Origin: Clostridia bacterium
GTDB taxonomy: Bacteria > Bacillota > Peptococcia > DRI-13 > SV3-B141
Direction: 5' to 3'
Assembly: GCA_018433015.1 (NCBI GenBank)
Contig: JAHDSB010000050.1
Location: 1 to 39,286, forward strand
DNA: 39,286 nt
Shown here one piece after another: positions 19,767 to 39,032 of this stretch; the stretch's first letter is position 1, and the number at the start of each line of letters is the position of its first letter. A program made the position numbers and the translations under genes. The notes below the pieces were generated by a model. It did not search any database and was not told the DNA's origin. It saw only the letters and a program-made list of their open reading frames with translations.

Positions 19767-20681
19767 TTATTGATAATTTTTATTAGTATTTGTAACGCCG
19801 GCTTGCTGCCCTATCTGCTTCAAGCTGGAAGTTGTTCCAGCCAATTGTTGTTGAGAACTTTGATATACGCTGGGGTCCATAGTTGAAATATCAGATAGGG
19901 AAGAAGTTGTTCCCATAGAAGTCTTTCCCACGTTGCTAGCAGCGCCACTTATACTACCAGATGTTGAACCCAGAGCTCCTGAGGAAACTCCGGCTTGTTG
20001 ACCGATTTGCTGTAAAGAAGGGCTGCCTTTTCCTAATTGATTTTGCGAAGCCAAATAGGTATCGGCATTCATTGAGGCAATATCCGATAAAGGAGATTGG
20101 GCTCTAGCTTGGAAACCCTGACCTCCTGCCTGGTACTGTTGGCTACCCATCTGTGTTCCATATTGTTGAGCACCCATTTGAGTCCCGTATTGCTGACCAC
20201 CCATTTGGGCTCCATACTGCTGTCCACCCATGGTGGAGCCATATTGTTGTCCGCCTTGCATAGAGGCACCAGCGCCGTAATTTTGTGGAGCACCTGCAAA
20301 CTGCATGGCATTCTGATATGTATCAGGACTCATAGTTGCTTGGTTAAATAAAGCGTTGGATTGTTGTGGATATCCTTGTCCTGCCATCATTCCCATATTG
20401 GCTCCACCGGTGCCGTAATTTGCTGTTTGTCCATATCCGTATTGTCCTGTCATACCGGTCATATAAGTGGGACTTGGAGAGTACATTTGTTGACCGCTTA
20501 TATTTTGTAGATTTGAGAAGCACTCCTGACTAATTTGTTGAATTCTTTGAAGTTGTTGAGCAGCATAGGAACTTTCTTGTGCCATTTGTTGTACCCGTTG
20601 TTGAGATTGCTGCATTTGATTTGCTAACTGCTGTATAGCGCTGAGTTTTTGTTGAACCTGTTGAATTTGATTACTTAACAT
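19767..20681 (-). CDS. Gln/Gly/Tyr-rich repeat protein with N-terminal coiled coil, function unknown
   Basis: I do not recognise a named family for this 304-residue protein. Residues 1-65 are a Gln-rich amphipathic helix (QQVQQKLSAIQQLANQMQQS, heptad-like). Residues 66-140 are Gly/Tyr/Met-rich. Residues 143-187 are five 9-residue repeats of the type GGQQYGxxM. The C-terminal part has two 35-residue imperfect repeats (197-231, 260-295) with the pattern SLSDI-x2-M-x4-Y-x2-SQ-x2-L...SL-x-QIGQQAGV; a partial third copy of the M-x4-Y piece is at 117 (MSPDTYQNA). One Cys (54), no signal peptide or transmembrane helix. ATG at 20681 follows GGAGGTTAATTA. Composition resembles self-assembling coat or prion-like proteins; a spore-surface role is only a guess. 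Confidence 0.8.
   Translation of the reverse strand: MLSNQIQQVQQKLSAIQQLANQMQQSQQRVQQMAQESSYAAQQLQRIQQISQECFSNLQNISGQQMYSPSPTYMTGMTGQYGYGQTANYGTGGANMGMMAGQGYPQQSNALFNQATMSPDTYQNAMQFAGAPQNYGAGASMQGGQQYGSTMGGQQYGAQMGGQQYGTQMGAQQYGTQMGSQQYQAGGQGFQARAQSPLSDIASMNADTYLASQNQLGKGSPSLQQIGQQAGVSSGALGSTSGSISGAASNVGKTSMGTTSSLSDISTMDPSVYQSSQQQLAGTTSSLKQIGQQAGVTNTNKNYQ
20121..20255 (-). repeat. Five 27-bp tandem coding repeats
   Basis: Within the Gln-rich gene, five in-frame copies of a 27-base unit encode GGQQYGSTM, GGQQYGAQM, GGQQYGTQM, GAQQYGTQM and a diverged GSQQYQAGG. Copy number could vary between strains by slippage. Confidence 0.85.
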
Positions 20682-34666: not shown

Positions 34667-35128
34667 TCATATCATAGTTTCAAAATCATGTTGTCTAAAG
34701 GCCTCATAGACTATGATAGCCACAGAATTGCTTAAATTTAGAGAACGGTAGCTGGGACACATAGGAATTCTGAAACAATTGTGGGGATGATCTTTTCTAA
34801 GTCCCTCCGGTAAACCTTTCGTTTCTTTACCAAACATCAAATAAGCACCTTTTGGATAGCTTGTATCCGTATAGTTATGGGCCCCTTTAGTCGTTGCTAA
34901 AAACAACATTTCCGGATCTACAGTTTTTAAAAATTCCTCCAAGTTTTTATAAACATGAATATCTAAAGTATCCCAATAATCAAGGCCCGCTCGCTTTAAA
35001 TGTTTATCATCAATAGAAAATCCCAACGGTTCTACAAGATGAAGACTGCATCCTGTTACTGAACATGTTCGGGCTATATTACCAGTATTTGCAGGTATTT
35101 CTGGTTCGACTAATACAATATTAAACAC
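34667..35128 (-). CDS. trmL: tRNA (cytidine(34)-2'-O)-methyltransferase TrmL
   Basis: TrmL methylates the ribose of the wobble base in certain leucine tRNAs. The protein of about 153 residues is a minimal SPOUT methyltransferase: NIVLVEPEIPANTGNIARTC, then HLVEPLGFSIDDKHLKRAGL, the AdoMet-knot segments MFGKETKGLPEGL and FRIPMCPSYRSLNLSNSVAI. GTG at 35128 is chosen (AGGTGAG upstream); a GTG at 35137 overlaps that site. It overlaps the upstream YkgJ-like gene by 8 bases. TrmL acts on cytoplasmic tRNA. Confidence 0.94.
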   Translation of the reverse strand: MFNIVLVEPEIPANTGNIARTCSVTGCSLHLVEPLGFSIDDKHLKRAGLDYWDTLDIHVYKNLEEFLKTVDPEMLFLATTKGAHNYTDTSYPKGAYLMFGKETKGLPEGLRKDHPHNCFRIPMCPSYRSLNLSNSVAIIVYEAFRQHDFETMI

Positions 35129-35804
35129 AACTCTCACCTTTTTTCTTTACTTTTTCCCATAAATTATCAGGCAAAATCTCTTTTATTTTCAACTCATCAT
35201 AGTTAGTTTTACCTGTCCACACATTTTCCGGCCAATCTTGGCCTATAACAGCAGGATCATCAGCTTCATGAATAACCAACCCTTTTTCTTGGCCGCTCTC
35301 CCACCAAATTCTTACTAATTCATCCTCCCCGGAATTAACAAGATAATCCCTCATTTCACTGGCTTGAGGCGATAATTTTGTGCAAATATATGTTCTGCAC
35401 ACTAAAGGACGAGCCTCATAAATTAAACACTTATGAGTATGAGGATCTAAAAATATACATTTATCTTGGCAATCTCGGGCCAAGGTAATATCAACGGCTC
35501 TACCTTCTACTGTAATATATGTGTATCTCTGAAAGAATTGTGGTAAATCTAGGTCGGGGGCTATTTCCCTTTTTAGCCTTCTTACATCAATACTTGTAAG
35601 AGGGATCCTCTCCTGACAACAAATATTACAACCCTCACACTGTCCGGTATTACTCCTTAACCTAGTAAACTTTCCCTTAAGTATGTAAGCATCTAAGGCC
35701 TTAGTATAATCAGCTATGGTAGCATTATCATTATACAACAACACATCTATTCCATCCAGGTTCTCCCCAGTATACGGAGCTATTTCTACTGCCTTTTTCG
35801 ACAT
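35121..35804 (-). CDS. YkgJ-family cysteine-cluster protein
   Basis: The 227-residue protein has the YkgJ/UPF0153 metal-chelating pattern: CEGCNICC (C-x2-C-x2-CC) around residue 70, then CQDKC, and HKCLIYEARPLVCRTYICTK, the typical C-x-I/L-Y-x-x-R-P-x-x-C-R. The cluster probably binds Zn or Fe-S; the role is unknown. ATG at 35804 is chosen because GGGAGGTGTGACGGT precedes it, lying in the last codons of the MFS gene; the frame is open upstream but without support. The spacing suggests coupling with the MFS transporter gene and trmL. Confidence 0.82.
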   Translation of the reverse strand: MSKKAVEIAPYTGENLDGIDVLLYNDNATIADYTKALDAYILKGKFTRLRSNTGQCEGCNICCQERIPLTSIDVRRLKREIAPDLDLPQFFQRYTYITVEGRAVDITLARDCQDKCIFLDPHTHKCLIYEARPLVCRTYICTKLSPQASEMRDYLVNSGEDELVRIWWESGQEKGLVIHEADDPAVIGQDWPENVWTGKTNYDELKIKEILPDNLWEKVKKKGESCV

Positions 35805-35808
35805 ACCG

Positions 35809-37011
35809 TCACACCTCCCGATACATTTCTTTCCTACTTCGTGCAATATCATCTCTAATACTAGCTAAGATTATTGTCAGTACAATTGCAACAACCAAAG
35901 ATAACGAGGTAATCAGCAAGGCCTTAGGAATCCCCCACGTATCTGCAGCAATTCCTGTAAATGATATTCCTAGACCTCCCAAGCCATAAGCTAGCCCCAT
36001 AGTCATGCCGGAAGCTAACCCTGCCCTAGTGGGCAAGAGCTCCTGCCCAATAACTATAGTAACAGGTATTGTACCGGCGAGGAAAAAGCCAAGTAGACAT
36101 AATATCCATACCCTAAGTACATGCGAAGAATATAAATAAATAGGTAAAAGTAATAATGATACAGAAAAAGTAGCTAATAACAGTTTTCTTCCACCTGTTC
36201 TGGGATAGATATAGCCCATTACAAAACCTCCTAAGGTGCCTGCCAATAGAAAATATGTAAGATTTAAGCCTCCTGCTTGCTCACTAGCACCTTGAGAAAC
36301 CAGCCAAAGAGGGACAAATACTGATATGGCCGCAATAAGCCAGGATCTTAGAGCCACTATACTACTTAAAACAAGTAGTGGCCTATAATTATCGAATTTA
36401 AATTTCTCCTCTGTTTGCAACGTTGTAGTATATCCTGTATGTTCTGAAGAGTTCTTAGCTTTATTTATTAAAACAAACACAATAAAGATAATACCCGGAA
36501 TCACCATTAAAGTAAGGGCCTTTAAGCCCCAAACGCTAACCAGATATGCTGTTAACGCAGGGGATATGGCAAAACCTAAATTCCCCAGGCTACTGAATAA
36601 GGACATTTTTAAGGCTCGATCTTCTAAGCTAGCATTTTCTACAGCTTTAGTAGCCCCCAGGGGATGAAAGATAGCAGAACCAATAGCAGCCAAAGCAACC
36701 ATTAATATAAAAATAATATAGTTTTCAGCTAAATAGATAAAACACATGGGAACAGCAGTAAGAAGTATGGCAAAATTCAAAGACCATTTTTGAGGATCTT
36801 TGTCTATAATAAATCCCAAAAATGGCTGTAAAAAATTTGCAATAACTGATTGTATGGAAACAATTAAAGCTACTTTTGTATTACTAAGTTCCCACATCCC
36901 ACAAATAAAGGGAAGTAAAGGAGGAAGCATATTGGCATACAAATCTGACCAAAAATGCCCCCATGATACAATTACAGTTTGAAACCATTTTTTATTTTGC
37001 ACAGAAACCAC
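35809..37011 (-). CDS. MFS transporter of the fosmidomycin-resistance (Fsr) type
   Basis: The 400-residue protein has about 12 hydrophobic segments. The N-terminal motif WGHFWSDLYANMLPPLLPFI resembles the H-x-x-x-D-x-x-x-x-x-x-P-P-L-L opening of Fsr-like MFS proteins. The loop 2-3 segment QPFLGFIIDKDPQKW and the symmetrical GGFVMGYIYPRTGGRKLLL in the second half fit the MFS fold. Substrate is unknown; drug or small-acid efflux are options. The start is GTG at 37011 (AAGGA upstream), or GTG at 37002. It is first in the MFS-ykgJ-trmL run. Confidence 0.85.
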   Translation of the reverse strand: MVSVQNKKWFQTVIVSWGHFWSDLYANMLPPLLPFICGMWELSNTKVALIVSIQSVIANFLQPFLGFIIDKDPQKWSLNFAILLTAVPMCFIYLAENYIIFILMVALAAIGSAIFHPLGATKAVENASLEDRALKMSLFSSLGNLGFAISPALTAYLVSVWGLKALTLMVIPGIIFIVFVLINKAKNSSEHTGYTTTLQTEEKFKFDNYRPLLVLSSIVALRSWLIAAISVFVPLWLVSQGASEQAGGLNLTYFLLAGTLGGFVMGYIYPRTGGRKLLLATFSVSLLLLPIYLYSSHVLRVWILCLLGFFLAGTIPVTIVIGQELLPTRAGLASGMTMGLAYGLGGLGISFTGIAADTWGIPKALLITSLSLVVAIVLTIILASIRDDIARSRKEMYREV

Positions 37012-37107: not shown

Positions 37108-38388
37108 TTATCCTTCTTCACTTTTTCCCTCTTCCCCATCTTCCCCTTCTTTCTTATCTTCCTCTTCTGCTCCCTCTCCTTTTTTCATTTCAATACTTTC
37201 AATCTCGCCTTTAATGTTCATTTCAAACTCCTGACCATCTTTTGTTTTAATCTTTACTACTGTTTTTTTTTCGTCCTCATTTTTACCAGCTTCTTTATCT
37301 CCCGGATTATCTTTATTATCTTGTTTTTCTTCACCTTCTGAGCCCTTCTGATTTTCTTTTCCATCCTTGGCTTGCTTTTCTTCAAGCATCTTAATTCTTT
37401 CATCTAGTAAAGAAATATTATCTTTGGTAATTGAACGTACAGGGATAAAACGTACGGGAACTTCTTGCACGCCATTAGTAATCTGTTGTTCATAATCCCA
37501 TGGTTCATCTTTACTTAAATCCTCAGCAGTCTGTACAAGCAATTTAGCTAAGAGATCTGGACGCATATCTATTTCACCTGTATGCTCCTTTTTCTTTAGG
37601 GCATCCAAGGCCTGGAGCTCTGTGGCTACTCCGAAGGTTTTTATTTTATCCTTATCTTCACTTTCTTTAACTTTATTAATTACTTCCGTTGTGCTTTCCG
37701 CAGCATGGCATAAGATGGCCTGAGGGGCGGGAGTTTTAGCTAAATATTTGTTAACAGTATCACCCACACTGCTTTCCTTTTCAAGTTCTTCTACTGTTAC
37801 CTTACCAACCCTCTTATCATGCTTTAAAATGTTTAAATTGCCTTGCAGTAAATCCCGGAAAACAGGGTTATCCTGAGGCCCCGTAATTATTAGAACCTCT
37901 CCTACATCTTTCCCTGCTAAATTTTCCAACATCTGCTGTGCCTGTATTTCTCCTGTTCTTTCATAATCAGGTGCTAAATAAGCTTCGCAAGCAAAATCTT
38001 GGGGTAGTTTATTATAACAAATAACTTTTATACCCTGGCTTTGTAAAGCCTCCAAGCTTTTAGTAATCTCTGAAGTTTCAACAGGTTCTATAACAAGAAC
38101 TTTTACCTTTTCTTTTACAGCCTTTTGGATATTTTCTTGCTGTAAAGAGCTATTATTCTGTGCATCTAGCCAGAGAATTTCCATTTTCTTTTCCTTGGCT
38201 TGTTTATCAACCATCATTTTTAATATTTGATAATCATCGCCTTTTGTATCTGCTGAACTTACTGCAATCTTAACTTTATTGTTGCCTTCATCAAGTTTTG
38301 GTTTAGTTTGTGGATTTTGCCCGCAACCCGTTAGTACTGTTGTCACAAAAAATATTACCGCTATAAAATAAGTTATTATCTTTCTCAT
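37108..38388 (-). CDS. Periplasmic-binding-type lipoprotein with a highly charged C-terminal tail
   Basis: A lipoprotein signal (hydrophobic FIAVIFFVTTVLTGCGQ, lipid-carrying Cys22) is followed by a sugar-type periplasmic binding fold (about 37-325): KVKIAVSSADTKGDDYQILK, VKVLVIEPVETSEITKSLEA, VLIITGPQDNPVFRDLLQGN, ILCHAAESTTEVINKVKES. From about residue 330 it continues with a lysine/glutamate-rich segment, a small strand-like piece (KKTVVKIKTKDGQEFEMNIK) and an acidic end (EGAEEEDKKEGEDGEEGKSE). No permease or ATPase gene is adjacent, so it may sense rather than import. ATG at 38388 follows TGGTGGTGTCTGGAT. The ligand is unknown. Low complexity makes the tail look AT/GA-biased, but it is in frame with the rest. 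Confidence 0.85.
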   Translation of the reverse strand: MRKIITYFIAVIFFVTTVLTGCGQNPQTKPKLDEGNNKVKIAVSSADTKGDDYQILKMMVDKQAKEKKMEILWLDAQNNSSLQQENIQKAVKEKVKVLVIEPVETSEITKSLEALQSQGIKVICYNKLPQDFACEAYLAPDYERTGEIQAQQMLENLAGKDVGEVLIITGPQDNPVFRDLLQGNLNILKHDKRVGKVTVEELEKESSVGDTVNKYLAKTPAPQAILCHAAESTTEVINKVKESEDKDKIKTFGVATELQALDALKKKEHTGEIDMRPDLLAKLLVQTAEDLSKDEPWDYEQQITNGVQEVPVRFIPVRSITKDNISLLDERIKMLEEKQAKDGKENQKGSEGEEKQDNKDNPGDKEAGKNEDEKKTVVKIKTKDGQEFEMNIKGEIESIEMKKGEGAEEEDKKEGEDGEEGKSEEG

Positions 38389-38536
38389 ATCCAGACACCA
38401 CCATAAGCTTTTCTTAATCTTAGTATGATGAATAATTCTAAAAATATGAGTTAGCTAAGAGTATTAATTACTAGATTTCTTGGGCATTCTAATTAATAGG
38501 TAACTTTCGGAATATTATTAAGGGGGGTGATTTATT

Positions 38537-38698
38537 ATGAAGGGATATATTTGTCCTACCTGCGGAAAAACCGGAAAACTACCATCCTTCTGCTGTGGGG
38601 AGAGCATGGTGCAACGAGGAATGTATTACTGTGACAAATGTAAGGCTCAAGCAAATTCAGCAGGAGACTGCTGTGGTGCTCCGATGAGACAATTATAA
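38537..38698 (+). CDS. 53-residue protein with two desulforedoxin-like Cys4 sites
   Basis: This frame has a very strong ribosome site (AAGGGGGGTGATTTATT before ATG at 38537). It contains two copies of one Cys4 pattern: C6-x2-C9...C19-C20 (ICPTCGKTG...FCCGESM) and C32-x2-C35...C45-C46 (YCDKCKAQA...DCCGAPM). The two halves have identical 10-residue spacing and each ends in CCG-x-x-M, the ending of desulforedoxin and of the N-terminal iron site of desulfoferrodoxin (CCGxPM). It may bind two iron or zinc atoms. It is followed by a terminator and stands alone. The exact family is not recognised; metal binding is inferred from the eight ordered cysteines. Confidence 0.75.
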   Translation: MKGYICPTCGKTGKLPSFCCGESMVQRGMYYCDKCKAQANSAGDCCGAPMRQL

Positions 38699-38715
38699 TA
38701 CTTATCTTTTAAAAC

Positions 38716-38755
38716 AAACAAAAGAAGGACCAAAATCTGGTTCCTTCTTTTGTTT
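38716..38755. terminator. Convergent terminator between the Cys-rich gene and the FlhB-like gene
   Basis: Arms AAACAAAAGAAGG (38716-38728) and CCTTCTTTTGTTT (38743-38755), with an inner ACC/GGT pairing, lie between the convergent genes and overlap the stop codon of the minus-strand gene by two bases. Confidence 0.85.
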
Positions 38756-39032
38756 ACGTGCTACTTTTTTCATCCAATTTATATAAGAATGCTAATATTT
38801 CCGCCACAGCTTTATAAAGCTCTGAGGGTATTTCCGTATCAAGTGGCAGTCGGACAAGTTTTGCTACCAGTTCCACATCTTCATAAAGGGGCACATCATG
38901 TTCCTTGGCCGTCTTAATTATGTTATCAGCTATCAAACCTTCACCAACGGCCACTACTTTGGGGGCTCCTTGGGTGTGTTCTTTTTCATACTGCAAGGCA
39001 ACCGCTTTTTTCCGTTCATTCACATGTTTCAC
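38754..39032 (-). CDS. Free FlhB C-terminal domain protein (YlqH-like)
   Basis: The 92-residue protein aligns with the cytoplasmic C-terminal domain of the flagellar export switch FlhB: KKAVALQYEKEHTQGAPKVV, then AVGEGLIADNIIKTAKEHDV and IPSELYKAVAEILAFLYKL. It begins exactly where FlhB is self-cleaved: FlhB has NPTHYAVAL, here NERKKAVAL, so the cleavage motif is lost and no membrane domain is present. This is YlqH of B. subtilis, whose function is not established. It follows the FliK-like gene by one base, so the pair is translationally linked. Confidence 0.9.
   Translation of the reverse strand: MKHVNERKKAVALQYEKEHTQGAPKVVAVGEGLIADNIIKTAKEHDVPLYEDVELVAKLVRLPLDTEIPSELYKAVAEILAFLYKLDEKSST

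Follow-up and report, generated by a model that had tools for sequence, protein, structure and literature searches.

The window, a stretch of 39,286 nucleotides analysed as a whole, comes from a Clostridia bacterium (contig JAHDSB010000050.1). It contains an open reading frame, running from ATG to TAA, whose translated product of 53 residues is MKGYICPTCGKTGKLPSFCCGESMVQRGMYYCDKCKAQANSAGDCCGAPMRQL (Table 1). The eight cysteines of the protein all belong to two sites, C6-x2-C9-x9-C19-C20-G-E-S-M and C32-x2-C35-x9-C45-C46-G-A-P-M. The translation agrees with the sequence-only reading, which had described the eight cysteines as two CxxC-x9-CC sites, each ending in CCGxxM. The stretch LPSF in half 1 corresponds to LPD(F/Y) in most relatives. 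The terminator hairpin located 3' of the stop codon (−20.9 kcal/mol, z −6.47) was not equalled by any of 200 shuffles and is probably common to this gene and the convergent gene. Since its neighbours are divergent on one side and convergent on the other, the gene forms a single transcription unit in the window. Elsewhere in the window, positions 19767–20681 (−) encode a 304-residue protein rich in Gln, Tyr, and Gly that contains short repeats and lacks a match in Pfam. Positions 35121–35852 (−) encode a CxxCxxCC protein (PF03692), a cysteine-rich metal-binding candidate, beside an MFS transporter.

Table 1. Position of the gene for the 53-residue protein, its putative signals, and its neighbours in the window.
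Feature	Position	Strand	Basis
Divergent neighbour, periplasmic sugar-binding-type lipoprotein (PF13407)	37108–38388	−	Context, outside the unit
−35-like TATTA (in GTATTA, 38461–38466)	38462–38466	+	Highest-scoring bipartite match 5' of the gene
−10-like GGGCATTCTA, spacer 15	38482–38491	+	Family-wide motif, discovered without a prior model
Ribosome-binding site AAGGGGGGTG	38520–38529	+	Read directly, just 5' of the ATG
53-residue protein with two CxxC-x9-CC sites	38537–38698	+	Translation; homologues
Half 1, residues about 3–27, CPTC-x9-CCGESM	38543–38617	+	Alignments, HHalign
Half 2, residues 28–53, CDKC-x9-CCGAPM	38618–38695	+	HHalign
Terminator hairpin	about 38716–38755	+	RNA fold and pattern scan
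Convergent neighbour, FlhB C-terminal-domain homologue (PF01312)	38754–39032	−	Context

BLAST searches of the window's own genome returned one copy of the gene and one weak match. Matches at E ≤ 0.1 were obtained in 12 of the 25 genomes of the order, eight of which were real (E < 1e-6), and in 18 of the 46 genomes of the class, ten of which were real. Of 398 genomes sampled evenly across the phylum, 37 were positive at E ≤ 0.001. Since the open reading frame is carried by 8/25 genomes of the order and 37/398 genomes of the phylum, it is not due to chance but represents a real gene, equipped with a ribosome-binding site and a terminator of its own. When named genomes were scanned with a profile, 30 loci were retained out of 53 candidate stretches, all in records bearing the name of Bacillota/Firmicutes or of Clostridia within them (e.g. 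Peptococcaceae, Thermincola, and Candidatus Formimonas). No relative was found in plasmid records, phage records, or viral contigs, so an origin in mobile elements is unsupported. The comparisons thus define a family conserved among Bacillota in which spore genes are mostly present. The protein and its family are covered by no Pfam or NCBIfam model, and searches of Pfam, NCBIfam, PHROGs, and the PDB with the single sequence, or of the PDB with a family profile, returned only chance-level zinc-finger matches. Such a family was not described in the literature listings retrieved on desulforedoxin (in relation to sporulation, tandem or homodimer arrangement, or zinc) or on redox proteins or zinc ribbons of the forespore.

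The 68 loci collected correspond to 46 distinct core sequences, gathered with the pattern CxxC-x5-[LI]P-x2-C[CH], members lacking this pattern being uncounted. Both sites were of the CxxC-x9-CC type in 31 of the 46 sequences. Site 1 displayed CH in place of CC in ten sequences and site 2 displayed CDC in two. In three distinct sequences (L007, L008, and L009, together with named copies), site 2 was gone and half 1 was retained. The latter three loci belong to small genomes from a single family of the order and still carry the upstream motif described below. Low-complexity sequence was present where half 2 had been in the one-site relatives L007/L075, L008/L071, and L009/L080. The alignment of 33 members showed P16 and all cysteines but C20 to be invariant, C20 being Cys in 82% of the members and otherwise His. 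Conservation besides the cysteines involved P16, L15, G21, and M24, and column identity was higher in half 1 (0.71) than in half 2 (0.59). These residues bear on the possibility that the protein is a metallothionein-like thiolate store of metal which would itself be loaded into the spore. Eight cysteines per 53 residues would suit this function, but the conserved non-cysteine residues, together with a predicted ordered fold containing two discrete four-ligand sites, make it highly improbable.

The sequence-only reading had likened each site to desulforedoxin, had considered the protein as an intramolecular version with both sites on one chain, and had proposed sequence and structure searches of each half. 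Comparison of the half 1 and half 2 profiles by HHalign gave 98%. This computation therefore indicates that the protein is an internal duplication with homologous halves, which supports the single-chain reading. Each half was also compared with a profile of 15 desulforedoxin domains taken from desulfoferrodoxins of the same order. HHalign gave 92.8% (score of 28.1) for half 1 and 95.6% (score of 32.4) for half 2, with all four ligands matched and the loop interrupted by a gap of six residues. Column shuffles in which the cysteines were fixed reached at most 16.7 for half 1 and 17.5 for half 2, and none of the 60 shuffles per half attained the real scores. Profiles of Fin and Gin scored 17.5–23.1 over 10–15 columns, indicating that the shared CxxC accounts for some of the desulforedoxin signal without explaining it entirely. 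Kinship beyond the cysteines thus stood, and the computed alignments point to a relation of each half to the desulforedoxin domain, with a loop cut from 15 to 9 residues. The spacing did not follow: the defining desulforedoxin motif is CX2CX15CC (available parts of PMC3116461 and PMC11980386), whereas both halves are CX2CX9CC.

Loop length varies in nature, as indicated by the 13-residue desulforedoxin loop of an HTH-Dx-SOR protein encoded by the window's own genome. Taking this variation and the divergent spacing together, we refer to the protein as desulforedoxin-like rather than as a desulforedoxin. Several copies of open reading frames of the HTH-Dx-SOR type, 207–209 residues in length, were observed in the order (L002 at G000:C116:6405-6485, −; L013; L015; L016); they combine an HTH, a desulforedoxin site with the 13-residue loop, and an SOR-like domain, named by eye. 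Separately, a stand-alone short desulforedoxin-like open reading frame with the canonical loop spacing and a short tail (L196, G001:C1:3415851-3415940) was detected in one of the genomes harboring the tandem family.

In both AlphaFold2 models (pLDDT of 85.4 and 87.0; pTM of only 0.56–0.57), halves 1 and 2 share one short-strand pattern. In Foldseek searches, desulforedoxin (1dxg) ranked third with the first model, behind PolD zinc modules at ranks 1 and 2 (probability of 0.96, E of 0.23), and first with the other model (probability of 0.80, E of 0.70). Neither E-value is significant alone, 1dxg being the best interpretable match for both models. VIA-align against 307 chains gave no match at Z ≥ 2. 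These data may also be considered in light of a common small double zinc ribbon without relation to desulforedoxin, in which the CCG..M endings would be convergent. Such a ribbon would account for the Cys-to-His substitutions, which fit zinc, and for single-sequence searches of Pfam and the PDB that returned weak zinc-finger matches only. It is improbable given that the similarity to desulforedoxin lies far above cysteine-preserving shuffles (0/60 for each half) and that the Fin and Gin profiles score lower than the desulforedoxin domains. Adjacent CC pairs are, in addition, unusual in zinc ribbons.

The genomic context varies by lineage, and the clustered neighbour genes provided no functional clue. 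The FlhB-homologue convergent neighbour recurs in 17 of 40 clustered loci. In 52 of 68 loci (many genomes being counted twice), the upstream neighbour is encoded on the other strand, indicating that the gene has its own promoter there. The gene is not always stand-alone, since nine genomes of one branch harbor a same-strand gene directly upstream (L024, L027, L030, L031, L032, L034, L035, L038, and L045), as do the named copies L055, L058, L061, and L063. This upstream gene is conserved, encodes about 120 residues (MGYKFEFTWLLRLPV...), and has no Pfam or NCBIfam match. An operon is likely in L024, L030, and L031 because the gap between the two genes is very short, and some copies may be read from the promoter of the upstream gene.

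Visual comparison of the upstream regions pointed to a common element, and a promoter motif was sought in 42 non-redundant upstream regions out of the 68 collected. The motif obtained, TTTTTGGnAAnACT, had a log-likelihood ratio of 146.8, versus 54.0–71.8 for 12 dinucleotide shuffles and 48.5–62.8 for eight sets, each of 42 upstream regions drawn at random from other genes. The site present in the window scored 13.9. The genes gpr and spoIIR are classical members of the sigma-F regulon, and their promoters in genomes of the same order were used as a yardstick. The family motif scored higher on 15 gpr (p = 6e-4) and 15 spoIIR (p = 2e-5) upstream regions than on 198 control upstream regions. For the reverse test, a −35/−10 model was built from 16 of 30 gpr and spoIIR sites of the order. 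The median score was 9.05 for the 42 family upstream regions versus 3.47 for the 198 controls (p = 1.5e-9), a comparison that is not wholly independent because the gpr and spoIIR sites were the best matches of the family motif, chosen by eye. The −35 part and the spacing played no role in locating these training sites. Scores of at least 10 were reached by 16/42 family regions versus 10/198 controls, the window site TATTA-N15-GGGCATTCTA scoring 11.0. Scores below 8 were obtained for 20/42 family regions, and 20/198 controls reached 8. The contrast was weaker for the −10 alone (score ≥ 9 in 11/42 family regions versus 15/198 controls, p = 5e-5).

The gpr- and spoIIR-based model thus recognizes a sigma-F-type promoter family-wide, single sites being predictions. 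The consensus of sigma-F promoters is GYWTA-N15-GGnnAnAnTW. SASP genes are targets of sigma-G and served as the sigma-G yardstick; only one of 29 SASP upstream regions with a usable start (out of 30) reached a family-motif score of 10. The motif is therefore of the sigma-F rather than of the SASP-like type. The family motif contains a G before the −10, as do the sigma-F promoters of C. difficile, in which this residue distinguishes them from sigma-G promoters (available part of PMC3789822). The csfB sigma-F promoter of B. subtilis reads GTATA...GGGGAGGCTA (available part of PMC4383634). A scan of the + strand from 38380 to 38800 for sigma-A-type sequences revealed no promoter-like site. Together, the upstream comparisons strongly suggest that the gene is transcribed in the forespore by sigma-F, and perhaps additionally by sigma-G. 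Since the upstream motif resembles the sigma-F promoters of gpr and spoIIR, the 53-residue protein is probably a forespore protein. This promoter, which was invisible to the sequence-only reading, is the new element and changes the likely biology.

The distribution of spore genes was compared with that of the family. SASP and gpr genes were present in all eight positive genomes of the order, and SASP genes in 11 of the 17 negative genomes (p = 0.07). Over the 398 genomes of the phylum, SpoIVA was detected in 34/37 positives versus 302/361 negatives (p = 0.14), a lack of separation explained by the fact that most of the phylum sporulates. The three positive genomes lacking SpoIVA are 80, 75, and 61% complete. 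Among good-quality genomes (≥90% complete and ≤5% contaminated), SpoIVA was found in 28/28 positives versus 279/328 negatives (p = 0.013). The distribution agrees, weakly, with a spore role for the family. As a separate observation, a SASP gene and gpr, which encodes the protease degrading SASPs, are adjacent on opposite strands in the window's genome (G000:C4:2340-3585) and in several relatives.

A forespore regulator of sigma factors standing in for Gin or Fin would have the promoter class and size of CsfB/Gin, a sigma-F-controlled zinc protein (available parts of PMC4383634 and PMC5890618). Alternation between the family and these proteins was not observed: Gin was found in 24/37 positives versus 169/361 negatives, and also in the window's genome, whereas Fin was found in 5/37 positives versus 41/361 negatives and was not found in the window's genome. 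Since Gin co-occurs with the family and the distribution of Fin is unrelated, the family does not replace Gin or Fin. Sequence kinship was also lacking (HHalign gave 14% for Gin, and 41% over 12 columns for Fin). We consider the stand-in even less probable than the double zinc ribbon.

The reading that we prefer, to which we give slightly less than an even chance, is that of a small protein of the developing spore carrying two desulforedoxin-like metal knuckles on one chain and acting as a partner-binding module, with zinc as the likelier metal. Each CxxC...CC set would hold one tetrahedral metal, for which zinc seems somewhat more probable than iron. The metals would fold a rigid two-lobed module equivalent to the desulforedoxin homodimer, and this module would work mainly by binding a forespore partner. 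The putative binding face is the conserved LPD(F/Y)-C-(C/H)-G of half 1, and half 2 would be a stabilizing lobe that may sometimes be dispensable. By analogy only, partner binding could resemble that of Gin and Fin, which are small zinc proteins known from the forespore. Gin is a zinc protein that binds sigma factors (available part of PMC5890618), and the predicted sigma-F timing of the family resembles that of Gin.

The kinship with desulforedoxin might alternatively reflect electron transfer. The protein would then be a forespore iron redox carrier whose two Fe(SCys)4 sites pass electrons to superoxide reductase or rubrerythrin, thereby shielding the spores of anaerobes from oxygen or facilitating their outgrowth under air, a proposal that we regard as rather unlikely. 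It is favored by the fact that the desulforedoxin domain is centre I of 2Fe superoxide reductases (available parts of PMC11980386 and PMC3116461), by a full desulfoferrodoxin (L186) in the window's own genome, and by the production of C. difficile rubrerythrin and SodA under sigma-G (available part of PMC3789822). The proposal retains some probability because spores of anaerobes carry oxygen-defence proteins (PMC3789822 and PMC11980386, in the parts available). In contrast, no redox gene adjoins the gene in the window, none was recognized by eye among the listed neighbour clusters, and a sigma-F-type promoter would act earlier than those of the sigma-G defence genes. Rubredoxin-type iron sites seldom take His. 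His substitutions in site 1 (10/46 distinct sequences) and loss of half 2 (3/46) speak against two strictly conserved Fe(Cys)4 redox sites and favor zinc and binding over a strict iron redox centre. Together with the CDC variants of site 2 (2/46) and the stronger conservation of half 1, they would fit a structural metal and an LPD(F/Y)C(C/H)G face better than a redox pair.

A broader version of the partner-binding reading, which we consider unlikely, is that the family represents a third, hitherto unrecognized class of sigma-F-controlled forespore metalloproteins in anaerobic spore formers, in which the desulforedoxin homodimer would have been rebuilt on one chain and turned from electron transfer to partner control. 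The candidate partners of such a class would be RNA polymerase, a sigma factor, or an enzyme of oxidative defence, with the same low likelihood.

To our knowledge, many small forespore proteins of anaerobic spore formers are unnamed, and the differences between the spores of strict anaerobes and those of Bacillus are poorly known. The family provides a concrete and conserved candidate for which the time and place of expression are predicted, together with a putative metal site and naturally occurring variants that have one site or a His ligand. If the kinship with desulforedoxin is true, a classic iron protein of two chains has been converted into a single chain having a shorter loop.

Comparison with known systems places the family as follows. 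Rubredoxin contains two CxxC pairs about 30 residues apart, whereas the family sites end in CC, and rubredoxins appeared in the PDB profile search at E ≥ 0.19 over 14 residues. Fin (PF10955), which is under sigma-F control, is likewise a small CxxC protein, starting with YxCxxCG, but has two distant CxxC pairs and no CC; the window protein was unlisted for PF10955 at E ≤ 10. Gin/CsfB (PF10764) is a small protein of the forespore that has a Cys4 metal site and a sigma-F promoter, the latter being predicted for the family, but is a treble clef (CxxC...CxxC) with one zinc per chain. The window protein was unlisted for PF10764 at E ≤ 10, and this family was absent from the 25 commonest families of the 33 members.

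The HTH-Dx-SOR protein of the window's genome (L002, 207 residues), which was the only other BLAST match in that genome (E of 0.08), has a desulforedoxin site whose loop is also shortened (13 residues), but with HTH and SOR-like domains attached. The N-terminal domain of desulfoferrodoxin, or 2Fe-SOR (PF06397, TIGR00319), is related by profile to each half (93% and 96%), and the family differs in being devoid of the superoxide-reductase domain. For PF06397 (Desulfoferrod_N), the window protein was unlisted at E ≤ 10, below the curated cut-off, and 7/33 members matched at E ≤ 1 (best of 3.6e-4), versus 1/33 for TIGR00319. Desulforedoxin itself (Desulfovibrio gigas, PDB 1dxg), the functional unit of which is a homodimer with two sites, one Fe(SCys)4 per chain, has the same CxxCG...CCGxxM ligand set. 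It differs by its loop of 15 residues, versus 9 in the family, which carries both sites on one chain and has a predicted forespore-type promoter.
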